Source of the DNA: Deltaproteobacteria bacterium CG11_big_fil_rev_8_21_14_0_20_42_23
Lineage (GTDB): Bacteria; UBA10199; 2-02-FULL-44-16
DNA length: 48,141 nt
Reading direction: 5' to 3'
NCBI GenBank assembly: GCA_002796345.1
Contig: PCXC01000011.1
Location: 1-48,141, forward strand
How positions within the stretch are numbered: the stretch's first letter is position 1; the number at the start of each line of letters is the position of its first letter. This document shows, piece after piece, positions 29,878-34,978 of this stretch. Below the pieces are notes generated by a model. It saw only the letters and a program-made list of their open reading frames with translations. It did no database searches and had not been told where the DNA came from. The translations under genes and the position numbers were made by a program.

Positions 29878-31179
29878 TTAATTTTTTCTGCGGAAGAAGG
29901 CTCGAATGGGAACACCTTTAAATCCAAAAGCCTCTTCAAAAGCATGTATGACATAGCGTTTGTATGCTTCCGGAATTCCTTCGGGGCAATTAGAATAAAA
30001 GAGAAAAGTGGGAGGATAACTTGTCATCTGCGTTACATAATTAATTTTCACAGATTTACTACGGTAAACGGGAAGATGATGTGCAGCAAGAGTTTCCTCA
30101 AGAACTGCATTCAATTTTGAAGTACTTATTTTTTTCGAAAGCAGCGCATCCATCACATCGAGAAGGTGAAATACTTTTACACACCCCTGCCCTGTTTTAG
30201 CGGAAACTTTCAGCATTTTAATGTGACCAAAGGCTCTCAGCTGATATTCTAGATCGGCTTGAAATTCTGGCCACGGCTTTTCCATCAAATCCCATTTATT
30301 CACCAGCAAGGCTACAGCCTTTCCTTGTTCATGAGCATAACCCGTCAAATGCAAGTCCTGTTTGGTCATGCCGTGAGTGGCGTCAATCAGCTGACAAACA
30401 ATATCACTTCGTTCAATGGCTCGAAGACTTCTAAAAGCCGTATTTTTTTCTAGGGGCTGTTCAAGTCGATACCCTTTTTTAATTCCGGCGGTATCTACAA
30501 AAGTATAAGACTTTTCTTTGTGCACAATTTCCACATCGATGGCATCGCGCGTAGTTCCAGGTGCATTATGAACAACGCAGCGGTTCTCACCTGCCAAATA
30601 ATTGATAAATGTGGATTTGCCGACATTCGGTTTACCAACAACAGCAATTTTTCTTCCTTTTGTTTTGTCTTCAAACGGAATTTCTTCTGGAAAACAAGAA
30701 AGCATTTGATCAAGGAGAAGATCTATCCCAAGTCCGTGTTCGGCTGATACTGGAAAAATTTTTCCCAAACCAAATTTGTAATACTGAACAAGATTTTTTT
30801 CATCGCGAGGAACATCAATTTTATTTGCTACCCAAATAACGGGTCGCTTCAATTTTCGCAGATACAAAATAAGTTCTTCATCCAAAACACCAGGTTCGGC
30901 ACGGCCATCAAACACCACCATCACCACATCGGCCTCTTCCATAGCCTTCATGCTTTGCGATGAAACTTTTTGCTCTAAATCCACTTCGGGAATGAGATCG
31001 ATACCACCGGTATCAACAAGGATATAGTCACGGCCAAGCCAAGTGGCATCGGCATAGTGCCGGTCGCGCGTCACGCCAGCAAGGTTGTGAACGATAGCAC
31101 TCTCAGACCCCAGCAAACGGTTGAAGAGTCTGGATTTGCCCACATTTGCACGGCCAACAATGGCAACGATTGGTTTCAT
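29878..31179 (-). CDS. der: Ribosome biogenesis GTPase Der (EngA)
   Basis: Double-GTPase required for 50S subunit assembly. Two G domains are present: the first with GRANVGKSRLFN (9-20), VTRDRHY and DTGGIDL; the second with GKPNVGKSTFIN (about 182), TTRDAID, DTAGIKKG and NKWDL. A C-terminal KH-like domain ends RAFFRRKN. The length of 433 residues is normal. It is the first gene of the der-YihY-SNF-YfgM-bamB-OmpA run. Confidence 0.97.
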   Translation of the reverse strand: MKPIVAIVGRANVGKSRLFNRLLGSESAIVHNLAGVTRDRHYADATWLGRDYILVDTGGIDLIPEVDLEQKVSSQSMKAMEEADVVMVVFDGRAEPGVLDEELILYLRKLKRPVIWVANKIDVPRDEKNLVQYYKFGLGKIFPVSAEHGLGIDLLLDQMLSCFPEEIPFEDKTKGRKIAVVGKPNVGKSTFINYLAGENRCVVHNAPGTTRDAIDVEIVHKEKSYTFVDTAGIKKGYRLEQPLEKNTAFRSLRAIERSDIVCQLIDATHGMTKQDLHLTGYAHEQGKAVALLVNKWDLMEKPWPEFQADLEYQLRAFGHIKMLKVSAKTGQGCVKVFHLLDVMDALLSKKISTSKLNAVLEETLAAHHLPVYRSKSVKINYVTQMTSYPPTFLFYSNCPEGIPEAYKRYVIHAFEEAFGFKGVPIRAFFRRKN

Positions 31180-31276: not shown

Positions 31277-31353
31277 TGGTAGCGGAGGGCGGACTCGAAC
31301 CGCCGACCTGTGGGTTATGAATCCACCGCTCTCACCAACTGAGCTACCCCGCC
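31277..31353 (-). tRNA. tRNA-Met (CAT)
   Basis: A full 77-base cloverleaf on the minus strand: GGCGGGG acceptor, GCTC/GAGC D-stem, anticodon loop TTCATAA, T-arm GGCGG-TTCGAGT-CCGCC, and an encoded CCA. The G1-U72 and G6-U67 pairs are wobbles, and position 31:39 of the anticodon stem is an A-C mismatch. The standard elongator form is favoured over initiator because the anticodon stem lacks three G-C pairs. A lysidine-modified tRNA-Ile cannot be fully excluded. Confidence 0.93.
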
Positions 31354-31424: not shown

Positions 31425-31967
31425 CTAGAAAAACCTTCGCTCGATATCTGAAATTTCCTCAGCAAAAGCCACTCCCACCTCGTAGACGCGTCGAAACAAC
31501 GATGGATTATACATTTGAGCCCAGCAGACGGTGCCAGGGATACTTTGGCTGGCAGGGTTCGAGCATACAATCACAATACGCTGCCCTTTTCCTACGGGCT
31601 CGGCAGTTTGAAATTTAATTCCCGTGGAGGAAATATTACAAACACGACCTGCATACCATCTATGGTCTTGCGCCACACAATAGGAAATACCTGCTGCAAT
31701 TTCTTTTCGTGCTGCAATTCTTCGTTCTTCTTGGCTGTTTCTTTCTGCTTTTTTTCCGCTTTGAATTAAGGTTTTATCGTAGACGGCTCTTTTTTCGGGA
31801 TGGGAAAGGGTTGAATAGGCTTCTCCCAGCAAAGAGGCGTCCTGCGAGCTTTCCCCAAGCTCGGGGTGTTTTTTGAGCGCAGACATCAAAACCAAGTAAG
31901 CCGCATGAATCACTTCGGTGGGAGCTTCTGGGCTTACGCGTAAGAGCTCATAAAAATTGCTGTCCAT
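31425..31967 (-). CDS. J-domain/PilZ fusion protein
   Basis: A 180-residue cytoplasmic protein. Residues 1-70 resemble a DnaJ J-domain (FYELLRVSPEAPTEVIHAAY, then LLGEAYSTLSHPEKRAVYDK). Residues 83-178 are a PilZ domain with the c-di-GMP-binding signatures RIAAR (RxxxR, 83-87) and NISSTG (NxSxxG, 111-116). The invariant HPD of J-domains reads HPE at 34-36, so Hsp70 stimulation may be lost and the J part may act only as an interaction module. AAGGAGG just upstream fixes the start. It lies 71 bases after era at the end of the mnmA-mtaB-rnc-era run. Confidence 0.85.
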   Translation of the reverse strand: MDSNFYELLRVSPEAPTEVIHAAYLVLMSALKKHPELGESSQDASLLGEAYSTLSHPEKRAVYDKTLIQSGKKAERNSQEERRIAARKEIAAGISYCVAQDHRWYAGRVCNISSTGIKFQTAEPVGKGQRIVIVCSNPASQSIPGTVCWAQMYNPSLFRRVYEVGVAFAEEISDIERRFF

Positions 31968-32038: not shown

Positions 32039-32917
32039 CTAATACCCAAAATCCTTTAGCTGCGAATCGTTTTTTGTCCAGCTTTGTTTCACTTTTACAA
32101 AAAGTTCAAGATAAACTGACGTTCCAAACATAAGTTCAAGGTCTTTTCTGGCGGCGAACCCAATCTCTTTTAATTTTTTTCCGCCCTTTCCAATCACCAT
32201 GCCCTTTTGAGAATCTCTTTCTACGATGATGGCCGCAAAAATACGATAAACACTATGACTTCCGCTTGGTTCTTCAAATTTTTCAATTTCTACTGCGCAT
32301 GAATAAGGAATCTCTTCATGCAAATGCAAAAAAGCCTTTTCCCGAATAATTTCGCCACATAAAAATCGTTCGGTGTGATTGGTATAATACTCTTCGGGAT
32401 AGAGAAACGGGCCTTCCGGTAAGTGCTGCATGAAATACTGAATAAGCTCTTCCGTTCCTTCTTCTTTTAGCGCGGAAAGAAACATAATATTTTTCACACC
32501 TAACTCAGCATAAATTTTATTGGCGAGTGATTCATATTCTTCTTTGGAGACAAGATCTGCTTTGTTCACCAAGACAATACATTTTTCGCGATCAACTTTT
32601 TGTAGTAAGCTTTTGTCTTGTTCTAGGCGTGGAAGTTTTGGATCGAGCACAAGGCAAACCATATCATTTTGCAACAGCACTTCATCAATGCTTCTCAACA
32701 TAGACTGGTTCAATTTTTTAGAAGATTCGTGATAGCCCGGAGTATCCAAAAAAATCATCTGACAGTTATCTTTGGTAATGATCCCCAAAATACGTTGACG
32801 TGTTGTTTGAACTTTTGGACTTACAATAGAAAGATGTTCACCCAGCAAAGCATTGAGCAGTGTTGATTTCCCAACGTTTGTCTGGCCAATAATAGCAATG
32901 TATCCACACTTAGTCAT
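32039..32917 (-). CDS. era: GTPase Era
   Basis: Essential GTPase that binds 16S rRNA near its 3' end during 30S maturation. The P-loop is GQTNVGKSTL (about 11-20), the switch region TTRQRILGI, G3 DTPGYH, G4 NKADL, and the C-terminal KH domain contains GMVIGKGGKKLKEIG. The length of 292 residues is normal. It follows rnc by ten bases, the classic rnc-era pairing. Confidence 0.97.
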   Translation of the reverse strand: MTKCGYIAIIGQTNVGKSTLLNALLGEHLSIVSPKVQTTRQRILGIITKDNCQMIFLDTPGYHESSKKLNQSMLRSIDEVLLQNDMVCLVLDPKLPRLEQDKSLLQKVDREKCIVLVNKADLVSKEEYESLANKIYAELGVKNIMFLSALKEEGTEELIQYFMQHLPEGPFLYPEEYYTNHTERFLCGEIIREKAFLHLHEEIPYSCAVEIEKFEEPSGSHSVYRIFAAIIVERDSQKGMVIGKGGKKLKEIGFAARKDLELMFGTSVYLELFVKVKQSWTKNDSQLKDFGY

Positions 32918-32927
32918 GAGTTTGTTC

Positions 32928-33659
32928 TCATTTTTCTTGCAGCTCTTCTTGTGCTAAATGTTCTAGTGCAAGTTTTGCTGCGTCTTGCTCGGCAGCTTTT
33001 TTACTGCTGCCTTTTCCTAAGCCTAGTACTTTATCACGAACTGAAAGTTCTACTTCAAAGATTTTTTTGTGATCCGGACCTGTTTCTTTTCGGAGTGCAT
33101 AACGAGGAATAGTACGAAAACGACTTTGCACTTCTTCTTGCAATCTTGTTTTATAATCTTTTTCAAAGCCAACAATATGTGATCTGGTAACTACATAAGC
33201 AAAATGTTTTGCAACAAGCGCTGCAACTTTTTTATATCCGCGATCAAGATAGACGGCGCCAAGCACCGCCTCATAAGCATCAGAGAGGAGCGAGCTTTTT
33301 TCTCTTCCTCCAGTTAAATCTTCACCTTTTCCTAAAAAAAGATATTCTCCAAGCGAAAGTTTTTTTGCCAGTTCAGCTAACTCATGTTCATTCACAAGTG
33401 CAGCGCGCATTTTTGAAAGCTCGCCTTCAGGTTGATCTGAAAACTGCTGCATCAACAAAGTGCTGATGCATAATTCTAAAACGGCATCGCCCAAAAATTC
33501 GTAGCGTTCATTATGTTCAGTGGCAGGAAGCTTTTGCTCGTTGGTATATGATTTGTGCGTAAGCGCTCTTTTGAGATGCGTTTTATCTTTGAACGAATAT
33601 CCAAGATGCGATTCGAATGCTTTTATAATTTTTTTTTCTTCACGTGTTACTCTAGGCAT
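32928..33659 (-). CDS. rnc: Ribonuclease III
   Basis: Double-strand-specific endoribonuclease for rRNA and mRNA processing. The signature HNERYEFLGDAVLEL and the downstream acidic residues in SDAYEAVLGAVYLDRG mark the nuclease domain; the C-terminal dsRNA-binding domain has GLGKGSSKKAAEQDAAKLAL. The frame extends to 33707, but MPRVTREEKK at 33659 is the conventional start and overlaps the mtaB stop by 13 bases. Confidence 0.96.
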   Translation of the reverse strand: MPRVTREEKKIIKAFESHLGYSFKDKTHLKRALTHKSYTNEQKLPATEHNERYEFLGDAVLELCISTLLMQQFSDQPEGELSKMRAALVNEHELAELAKKLSLGEYLFLGKGEDLTGGREKSSLLSDAYEAVLGAVYLDRGYKKVAALVAKHFAYVVTRSHIVGFEKDYKTRLQEEVQSRFRTIPRYALRKETGPDHKKIFEVELSVRDKVLGLGKGSSKKAAEQDAAKLALEHLAQEELQEK

Positions 33660-34978
33660 GTTCCGTATACCTTTAACCCTTCTACCTTTTCTACCTTCAC
33701 GGTACAAAGTGAACGATGCGCCAAATGCTTTTCCGCAAGCAAAAGAGGAACGTCGTTATCGCTTATCGCTGTTGTGAAACCACTTTCACCTTGTCGTTTG
33801 TCAATCACAATGGCTTCACATATTTTTCCTTGCAAGGAAGCATAAAAAGCTTCTCGTTTCTGATGTGCAATGGCCGAAAGTTCGCGAGCTCGCTGCTTTA
33901 CCACCTGCGGATCGAGCTTATCAACGCGCCTTGCAGCCGCAGTGCCTTCTCGCGCTGAAAAAGGAAAAACATGAATCCACGACAAAGGTGCTTCTTCCAA
34001 AAAAGTTTTTGTTTCCAAAAATTCTTCTTCGGTTTCACCAGGAAAACCAGCAATAATATCTGCAGAAATTGCCATATCAGGAATATGCTTATCTAACGAT
34101 TGAACAAGCTTTCTTGCTTGATGCGAATCAGTTTTTCTCATCATGCGCTTAATCACTGTGTTGGAAGCGCTTTGCAAAGAAAGGTGTAAATATCTGCATA
34201 CTCTTTTTTCGTTTTCTAAAAGATGTTTAATATCATCATCAACACCTTCTGGATCGAGTGAAGTGAGACGAATGCGTTTGATATCGGTATGCTTAAGAAG
34301 AGCTTTTACCAAATCTGAAAGCTTACACTTTTCATCGAAATCATTTCCATAACTTCCAATATGAATTCCAGTGAGTACAATTTCATTGTAGCCAGCTTCA
34401 ACTAATGCATTGGTGTGTTGAATAAGTTCAGGAATAGTCTTACTTACACTTTTTCCTCGTGCACGCCAAATGATGCAATAGGTACATCTGCGGTCACAAC
34501 CATCTTGAATTTTAAGATAAGCTCTAGCGCGTTGCTGATGATATGGCACGAGATCATCCAAAGTTGATGGAGGTGTTTCTTCAAGAGGAGAAAAAGATTT
34601 AAAAAGATATTCAATTAACTGATGACGATCACTCGTTCCAAAAACAGCATCCACTCCGTCAATTGCTCTCAATTGTTCCGGATACATTTCACCAGAACAA
34701 CCCGTTGCAATAACCAAAGCTTCTTTATTAAGTCTGTGCGCTTTGCGAAGCAAATTTCTGGCGCTGCGATCGGCAGCGTGAGTGACGGTGCAGGTATTCA
34801 CCACATAAACATCGGCACCTTTTTCGAAAGGAACGATTTCAAAACCAAGTTGCTCACACCGTGCTGCGATGGATTCTGAATCATAGACATTTGCTTTGCA
34901 GCCTAAGGTTTCAAGAGCAAGCTTCACTTTTCTTTCTTTTAGAAAGGGAAGTTTTTTTTCTTGATAGGCTAAGTTCAT
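33647..34978 (-). CDS. mtaB: tRNA t6A methylthiotransferase MtaB
   Basis: Radical-SAM enzyme converting t6A37 of tRNA to ms2t6A. The N-terminal UPF0004 domain carries three cluster Cys (27, 63, 94) in TLGCKANVYDSE, NTCTVT and GCSGEMYP; the radical-SAM CxxxCxxC is CDRRCTYC (161-168); a TRAM-like C-terminus follows. The N-terminal pattern LETLGCKANVYDSE fits MtaB better than MiaB or RimO. Its ATG overlaps the mnmA stop (ATGA), so two tRNA-modification enzymes are coupled. Confidence 0.92.
   Translation of the reverse strand: MNLAYQEKKLPFLKERKVKLALETLGCKANVYDSESIAARCEQLGFEIVPFEKGADVYVVNTCTVTHAADRSARNLLRKAHRLNKEALVIATGCSGEMYPEQLRAIDGVDAVFGTSDRHQLIEYLFKSFSPLEETPPSTLDDLVPYHQQRARAYLKIQDGCDRRCTYCIIWRARGKSVSKTIPELIQHTNALVEAGYNEIVLTGIHIGSYGNDFDEKCKLSDLVKALLKHTDIKRIRLTSLDPEGVDDDIKHLLENEKRVCRYLHLSLQSASNTVIKRMMRKTDSHQARKLVQSLDKHIPDMAISADIIAGFPGETEEEFLETKTFLEEAPLSWIHVFPFSAREGTAAARRVDKLDPQVVKQRARELSAIAHQKREAFYASLQGKICEAIVIDKRQGESGFTTAISDNDVPLLLAEKHLAHRSLCTVKVEKVEGLKVYGTCLE

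Follow-up and report, generated by a model that had tools for sequence, protein, structure and literature searches.

A J-domain with an HPE motif fused to a PilZ domain, and its relatives in one bacterial phylum

The window analysed here, which is the whole stretch of 48,141 nucleotides, encodes a protein in which a J-domain is fused to a PilZ domain. It is called the J-PilZ protein below. With moderate confidence, it is read as a J-domain joined to a PilZ sensor of c-di-GMP whose mode of action is most likely that of a class C J-domain protein, though with a variant motif. This reading is built on the two domains and their motifs, on the folds seen in a model, on conservation, and on the presence of genes for DnaK and for c-di-GMP enzymes in the source genome.

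The relevant features of the window are as follows.

31425..31967, minus strand: J-PilZ protein gene, an open reading frame of 180 amino acids with Pfam DnaJ and PilZ matches and with homologues in the phylum
31776..31958, minus strand: J-domain, residues 4-64, with HPE at 34-36; Pfam DnaJ match, and fold match to solved J-domains
31434..31724, minus strand: PilZ domain, residues 82-177, with RxxxR at 83-87 and NxSxxG at 111-116; Pfam PilZ match, and fold match to c-di-GMP-bound PilZ structures
32039..32917, minus strand: era, a GTPase gene (Pfam MMR_HSR1 and KH_2), upstream of the J-PilZ gene with a gap of 71 bp
32928..33707, minus strand: rnc, a ribonuclease III gene (Pfam Ribonucleas_3_3 and dsrm), start codon uncertain
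31277..31353, minus strand: tRNA-Met (CAT), from ARAGORN, between the J-PilZ gene and der
29878-31179: der, downstream of the J-PilZ gene

Domains, motifs and modelled fold

The reading frame is intact, starts with ATG and is preceded by AGGAGG, a good ribosome-binding site. The first-pass annotation, made from the sequence alone, had called a fusion of a J-domain with a PilZ domain, and this call holds. The Pfam DnaJ profile matches at E 4.2e-9 with 36.8 bits (cut-off 27.8), the Pfam PilZ profile at E 2.7e-10 with 40.9 bits (cut-off 22.5), and the model resembles solved examples of both. The change of HPD to HPE is confirmed at residues 34-36, where the Glu codon is GAG. A strict definition of a J-domain protein asks for HPD, and here the motif is HPE; this is why the protein is only said to ‘work like’ a class C J-domain protein.

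A PilZ receptor of c-di-GMP is taken here to be defined by RxxxR plus D/NxSxxG, and the protein has both. The first consists of R83 and R87, and the second reads N111-I-S113-S-T-G116. The signatures had been described as intact, and R83, R87, N111, S113 and G116 are indeed all present. Judged by sequence, the PilZ part is likely to bind c-di-GMP.

An AlphaFold2 model of the protein has a mean pLDDT of 80.2, with residues 72-89 below 50, and shows J-like helices and a strand barrel. Taken half by half, the top structural matches are solved J-domains and PilZ-bearing proteins. In VIA-align, the PilZ half matches c-di-GMP-bound VCA0042 (2rde) with Z 11.2 and an rmsd of 2.3 over 88 residues. The J half matches the J-domain 2och with Z 11.6 (rmsd 1.4 over 65 residues) and the DnaK-bound DnaJ of 5nro with Z 8.8; for small helical bundles, a Z below about 13 may lack specificity. 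Because a Z near 11 is by itself indecisive for such a small helical half, the J-domain call rests on Pfam too. A J fold was to be expected at residues 1-70 if the call was right, and AlphaFold2 together with VIA-align places one there.

A control model of a relative with HPD (L040) is similar, with a mean pLDDT of 78.5. Confidence in the motif loop is low in both models, with block means of 65 for the HPE protein and 56 for the relative. What HPE does to the domain therefore cannot be read from these models.

Relatives and gene neighbours

There are 16 full-length J-PilZ proteins, the present one included, in 14 of the 46 phylum genomes. A search of 385 genomes, which include these 46, gave no full-profile match outside the phylum among the matches listed. 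Relatives with a name are from draft assemblies labelled Deltaproteobacteria and Bdellovibrio sp. R83, R87, S113 and G116 are invariant in all 16 homologues. In 15 of the 16 the motif His lies 10 residues past the helix II Tyr/Trp (counted by eye for L011). In L010 this spacing is 8, as in E. coli DnaJ.

J-PilZ proteins with a longer linker are found in Gammaproteobacteria, in Desulforhopalus and in two other genomes (L043-L046, L061, L062). They have the same type of J-domain, with two extra residues before HPD, and a PilZ match at the C-terminal end. They differ in that HPD is intact and the linker holds CxxC pairs. Three of the six (L044, L046, L061) pass the Pfam PilZ cut-off, and L043, L045 and L062 fall below it.

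Three further proteins (L063, L064, L047) have a J-domain with two extra helix II residues and another C-terminal part. That of L063 has no Pfam match and by eye resembles L064. The genome that holds L061 also has a second strong J-domain match of J-PilZ type, at G273:C18:45536-45778. A mobile-element origin of the J-PilZ protein was considered and rejected: no plasmid record matched at E 1e-5, and the single match on a viral contig is partial, covering residues 6-70 only, at 31% identity.

A fusion of PilZ with a part of the Hsp70 system is already known in kind, from Myxococcus xanthus. PMC8316039 describes proteins of this species that combine PilZ with a DnaJ or DnaK domain. For the PilZ-DnaK proteins CsdK1 and CsdK2, PMC10313047 reports that they raise the accumulation of CdbS, a PilZ protein that binds c-di-GMP, also under heat. 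These M. xanthus proteins are like J-PilZ in that PilZ is fused to an Hsp70-system part. They differ in that CsdK1/2 carry Hsp70 itself and J-PilZ a J-domain; the M. xanthus DnaJ-PilZ proteins can be compared by description only. Deletion of 24 M. xanthus PilZ genes gave a motility or development defect only for plpA, pixA, pixB and pkn1, and left EPS unchanged in all, according to PMC8316039. The DnaJ-PilZ proteins of M. xanthus therefore showed no role in those tests. Within a limited literature search, judged by the papers' listed entries, only these two M. xanthus papers bore on PilZ combined with DnaJ or DnaK, and no report was found of a conserved J-PilZ family in the phylum or of an HPE member.

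As the first-pass annotation stated, the gene is encoded with era and rnc, which are both upstream and on the same strand. It also took this position as a link to ribosome maturation. The order rnc-era-J-PilZ is found in 3 of the 14 genomes (G000, G001 and G004), and in G001 the era stop overlaps the J-PilZ start, as TAATG. The fetched flanks of the other 11 showed neither rnc nor era; in G007 one of the flanks is cut short by the end of the contig, about 200 bases beyond J-PilZ. Position thus ties the gene to ribosome maturation only locally, in three genomes. Between era and the J-PilZ gene there is no terminator match on that strand, which is uninformative.

The other genomes have different neighbours. 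A separate single-domain PilZ gene adjoins the J-PilZ gene in all three of G005, G006 and G007. A second type of J-PilZ sits beside the first in the G005 and G006 genomes, and alone in G008. In these three it follows a gene from a cluster that scored as ThiI-like/NFACT-R in G006, and on the far side of that gene is one from a cluster that scored as response regulator plus HD domain, again in G006. Proximity to c-di-GMP genes is likewise a local feature, seen in four genomes (G005-G008). These PilZ and HD response-regulator neighbours are at least as good a pointer to c-di-GMP signalling as era and rnc are to ribosome maturation.

The layout at the loci with the second type (L085, L086, L087) is conserved and divergent: the gene of the HD response-regulator cluster faces one way, the ThiI-like/NFACT-R gene and then J-PilZ the other. 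In G033, G034, G035 and G037, J-PilZ has a member of a pseudouridine-synthase cluster (as scored in G034) nearby. More broadly, genes of RNA maturation or modification recur near J-PilZ genes in varied contexts: rnc/era, SpoU, ThiI-like, pseudouridine synthase and a PF08003 methyltransferase, which is presumably cmoB. This recurrence was noticed after the fact, at loci L080-L087, L091-L094, L043 and L046.

It could be argued that the PilZ domain is structural or binds another ligand, and that the rnc-era cluster here includes an ordinary co-chaperone for ribosome biogenesis. The gene order kept in three genomes, the overlap in G001 and the RNA-processing and modification genes in other contexts would all fit. 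This explanation is nevertheless improbable. It has to account for 11 of 14 genomes with neither rnc nor era in the fetched flanks, for c-di-GMP motif residues that are invariant throughout the family, and for PilZ or HD response-regulator-cluster genes nearby in four genomes.

The HPE motif and the Hsp70 partner

A survey of relatives had been proposed for the fusion and its motif. The fusion recurs, as described above; HPE is not shared. All 15 other phylum members have HPD, and HPE is seen in the present protein only, which makes it a local change.

The J-domain has changed at other places as well. Four of the 15 J positions that are invariant in the other members are altered here (Y5F, D36E, G39E and N48G), while the other members, treated alike over 11 or 12 positions, have zero or one such change each. 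Among PilZ positions invariant in the others, one of nine is altered, and this change (D111N) still fits D/NxSxxG. In addition, a Leu replaces R25, a residue that the other five close homologues all share. In E. coli DnaJ, positively charged residues in the stretch equivalent to R25, as mapped by alignment, bind DnaK, according to PMC8215388. With four of 15 invariant J positions altered, it is plausible that the contact with Hsp70 is weakened or re-tuned.

On a fixed tree, the branch of the present protein is 0.58 for the J part and 0.40 for the PilZ part, and that of G001 is 0.51 and 0.50. These lengths hint that J has changed faster than PilZ. Decay of the J-domain as a whole was considered and is not favoured: the J and PilZ parts are equally close to the nearest relative, with an identity of 0.51 each, although the branch lengths lean the opposite way.

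An error in sequencing or assembly, or a gene in decay, is a very unlikely source of HPE. In favour of such a source, the genome is a draft of 81 contigs, and the 46 phylum genomes searched hold no second genome of its genus. Against it, the frame is open and has its good ribosome-binding site, the PilZ motifs are intact, and D36E has other changes close by (G39E, N48G, D56H), a pattern that one read error would not yield.

There is precedent for HPE. A 2026 review (PMC13254874) states that changing D to N or H to Q in HPD abolishes Hsp70 stimulation, and that HPE seems to be the one replacement that is tolerated, with E. coli DjlB and DjlC as its carriers. Both sequences were inspected, and both have HPE and a Leu after the helix II Tyr, like the J-PilZ protein. 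They are unlike it in size, at 475 and 483 amino acids, in being described as tail-anchored (PMC8215388), and in a spacing from the helix II Tyr to HPE that is two residues shorter. PMC8215388 files DjlB and DjlC as class C J-domain proteins and reports that DjlC stimulates the ATPase of the Hsp70 HscC.

The first-pass annotation held that the J-domain had lost the Asp needed for Hsp70. This is right about the residue, as Asp has become Glu; loss of stimulation is not established, given that DjlB and DjlC carry HPE. These two proteins and the review together weaken the case for HPE as a plain loss of stimulation.

The source genome has only one full-length Hsp70, which is DnaK. It keeps the residues R167, E206, E217, Q378, L391, P419 and D477, which PMC8215388 names as J contacts of E. 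coli DnaK; D211 falls in an alignment gap. A second, HscC-like Hsp70 was considered as a partner and rejected: the sole other HSP70 match fits MreB over the 98-residue stretch tested. The DnaK partners given in PMC8215388 are DnaJ, CbpA and DjlA, and DjlB and DjlC are absent from that list. It counts against the class C reading that the E. coli HPE proteins, as far as this source goes, pair with HscC, and that the source genome offers DnaK only. The protein could work with DnaK, do so weakly, or not at all, and sequence cannot decide between these.

One alternative deserves to be taken seriously, even if it is tentative. In this lineage the domain may be a pseudo-J-domain (type IV, Pam16-like) that folds and docks but does not trigger the DnaK ATPase, so that the protein would act as an adaptor that depends on c-di-GMP, or would compete with DnaJ. 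The first-pass annotation proposed something close to this, a receptor that borrows a J-like bundle for docking. For the family that proposal fails, with HPD in all 15 others; for the present protein it gains from the further conserved J positions that are altered. The four altered positions, D36 among them, speak for a pseudo-J-domain, as no other member has more than one. So do the single PilZ change with its motif kept, the branch that is longer in J than in PilZ where G001 is about equal, and the J fold kept in the model. J-like domains that act without Hsp70 have also been proposed, for example TbPam18.

Against this stand the equal identity of both parts to the nearest relative, which argues that J is not decaying as a whole, and the HPE motif itself. 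Type IV proteins are those with a non-conservatively replaced HPD that are unable to stimulate Hsp70, according to PMC13254874. Here the motif is altered, but to the one replacement called tolerated there, and DjlC with HPE stimulates HscC (PMC8215388). Pam16 is similar in its J fold and altered HPD, but has DKE or DKS (PMC13254874), where the J-PilZ protein changed Asp to Glu only. A dead J-domain is possible.

A possible c-di-GMP switch

The source genome has diguanylate cyclase genes, with four GGDEF matches, two of them with intact GGEEF; it also has two HD_5 matches. One of the latter shows GYP and is in the same open reading frame as a degenerate GGDEF. There is no EAL match in the source genome, and there are four PilZ matches. 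Two of the proteins involved have other parts, as seen by eye: in L096 a GGEEF diguanylate cyclase follows an FHA-like N-terminal part, and L098 is ABC-transporter-like and has a weak C-terminal GGDEF match. The motifs, some of the neighbours and these enzymes suggest that J-PilZ may sense c-di-GMP.

The preferred reading, in which the protein works like a class C J-domain protein, would then run as follows. c-di-GMP would bind the PilZ barrel and the RxxxR stretch, which is at the end of the interdomain linker. Binding would alter how the J-domain is presented, or a client held by the PilZ face. DnaK would then be recruited to the client in a c-di-GMP-dependent way. With HPE and three further altered invariant J positions, stimulation of DnaK is expected to be kept, weaker or re-tuned, rather than lost. 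Nucleotide binding, DnaK contact, the switch and the client are the predicted elements here, and the changes at Y5, D36, G39 and N48, with R25 to Leu, weigh against the reading.

A bolder form of this idea is speculative and rather doubtful. Through the J-PilZ family, c-di-GMP might gate the recruitment of DnaK by an Hsp40, and in the present protein HPE, together with the helix II Leu, might make a c-di-GMP-controlled brake or a slow DnaK partner near the products of rnc and era.

If c-di-GMP does control a J-domain protein, this would mean that a second messenger acts directly on the choice of Hsp70 clients. The relatives with HPD and the one member with HPE would form a natural pair for testing such control.
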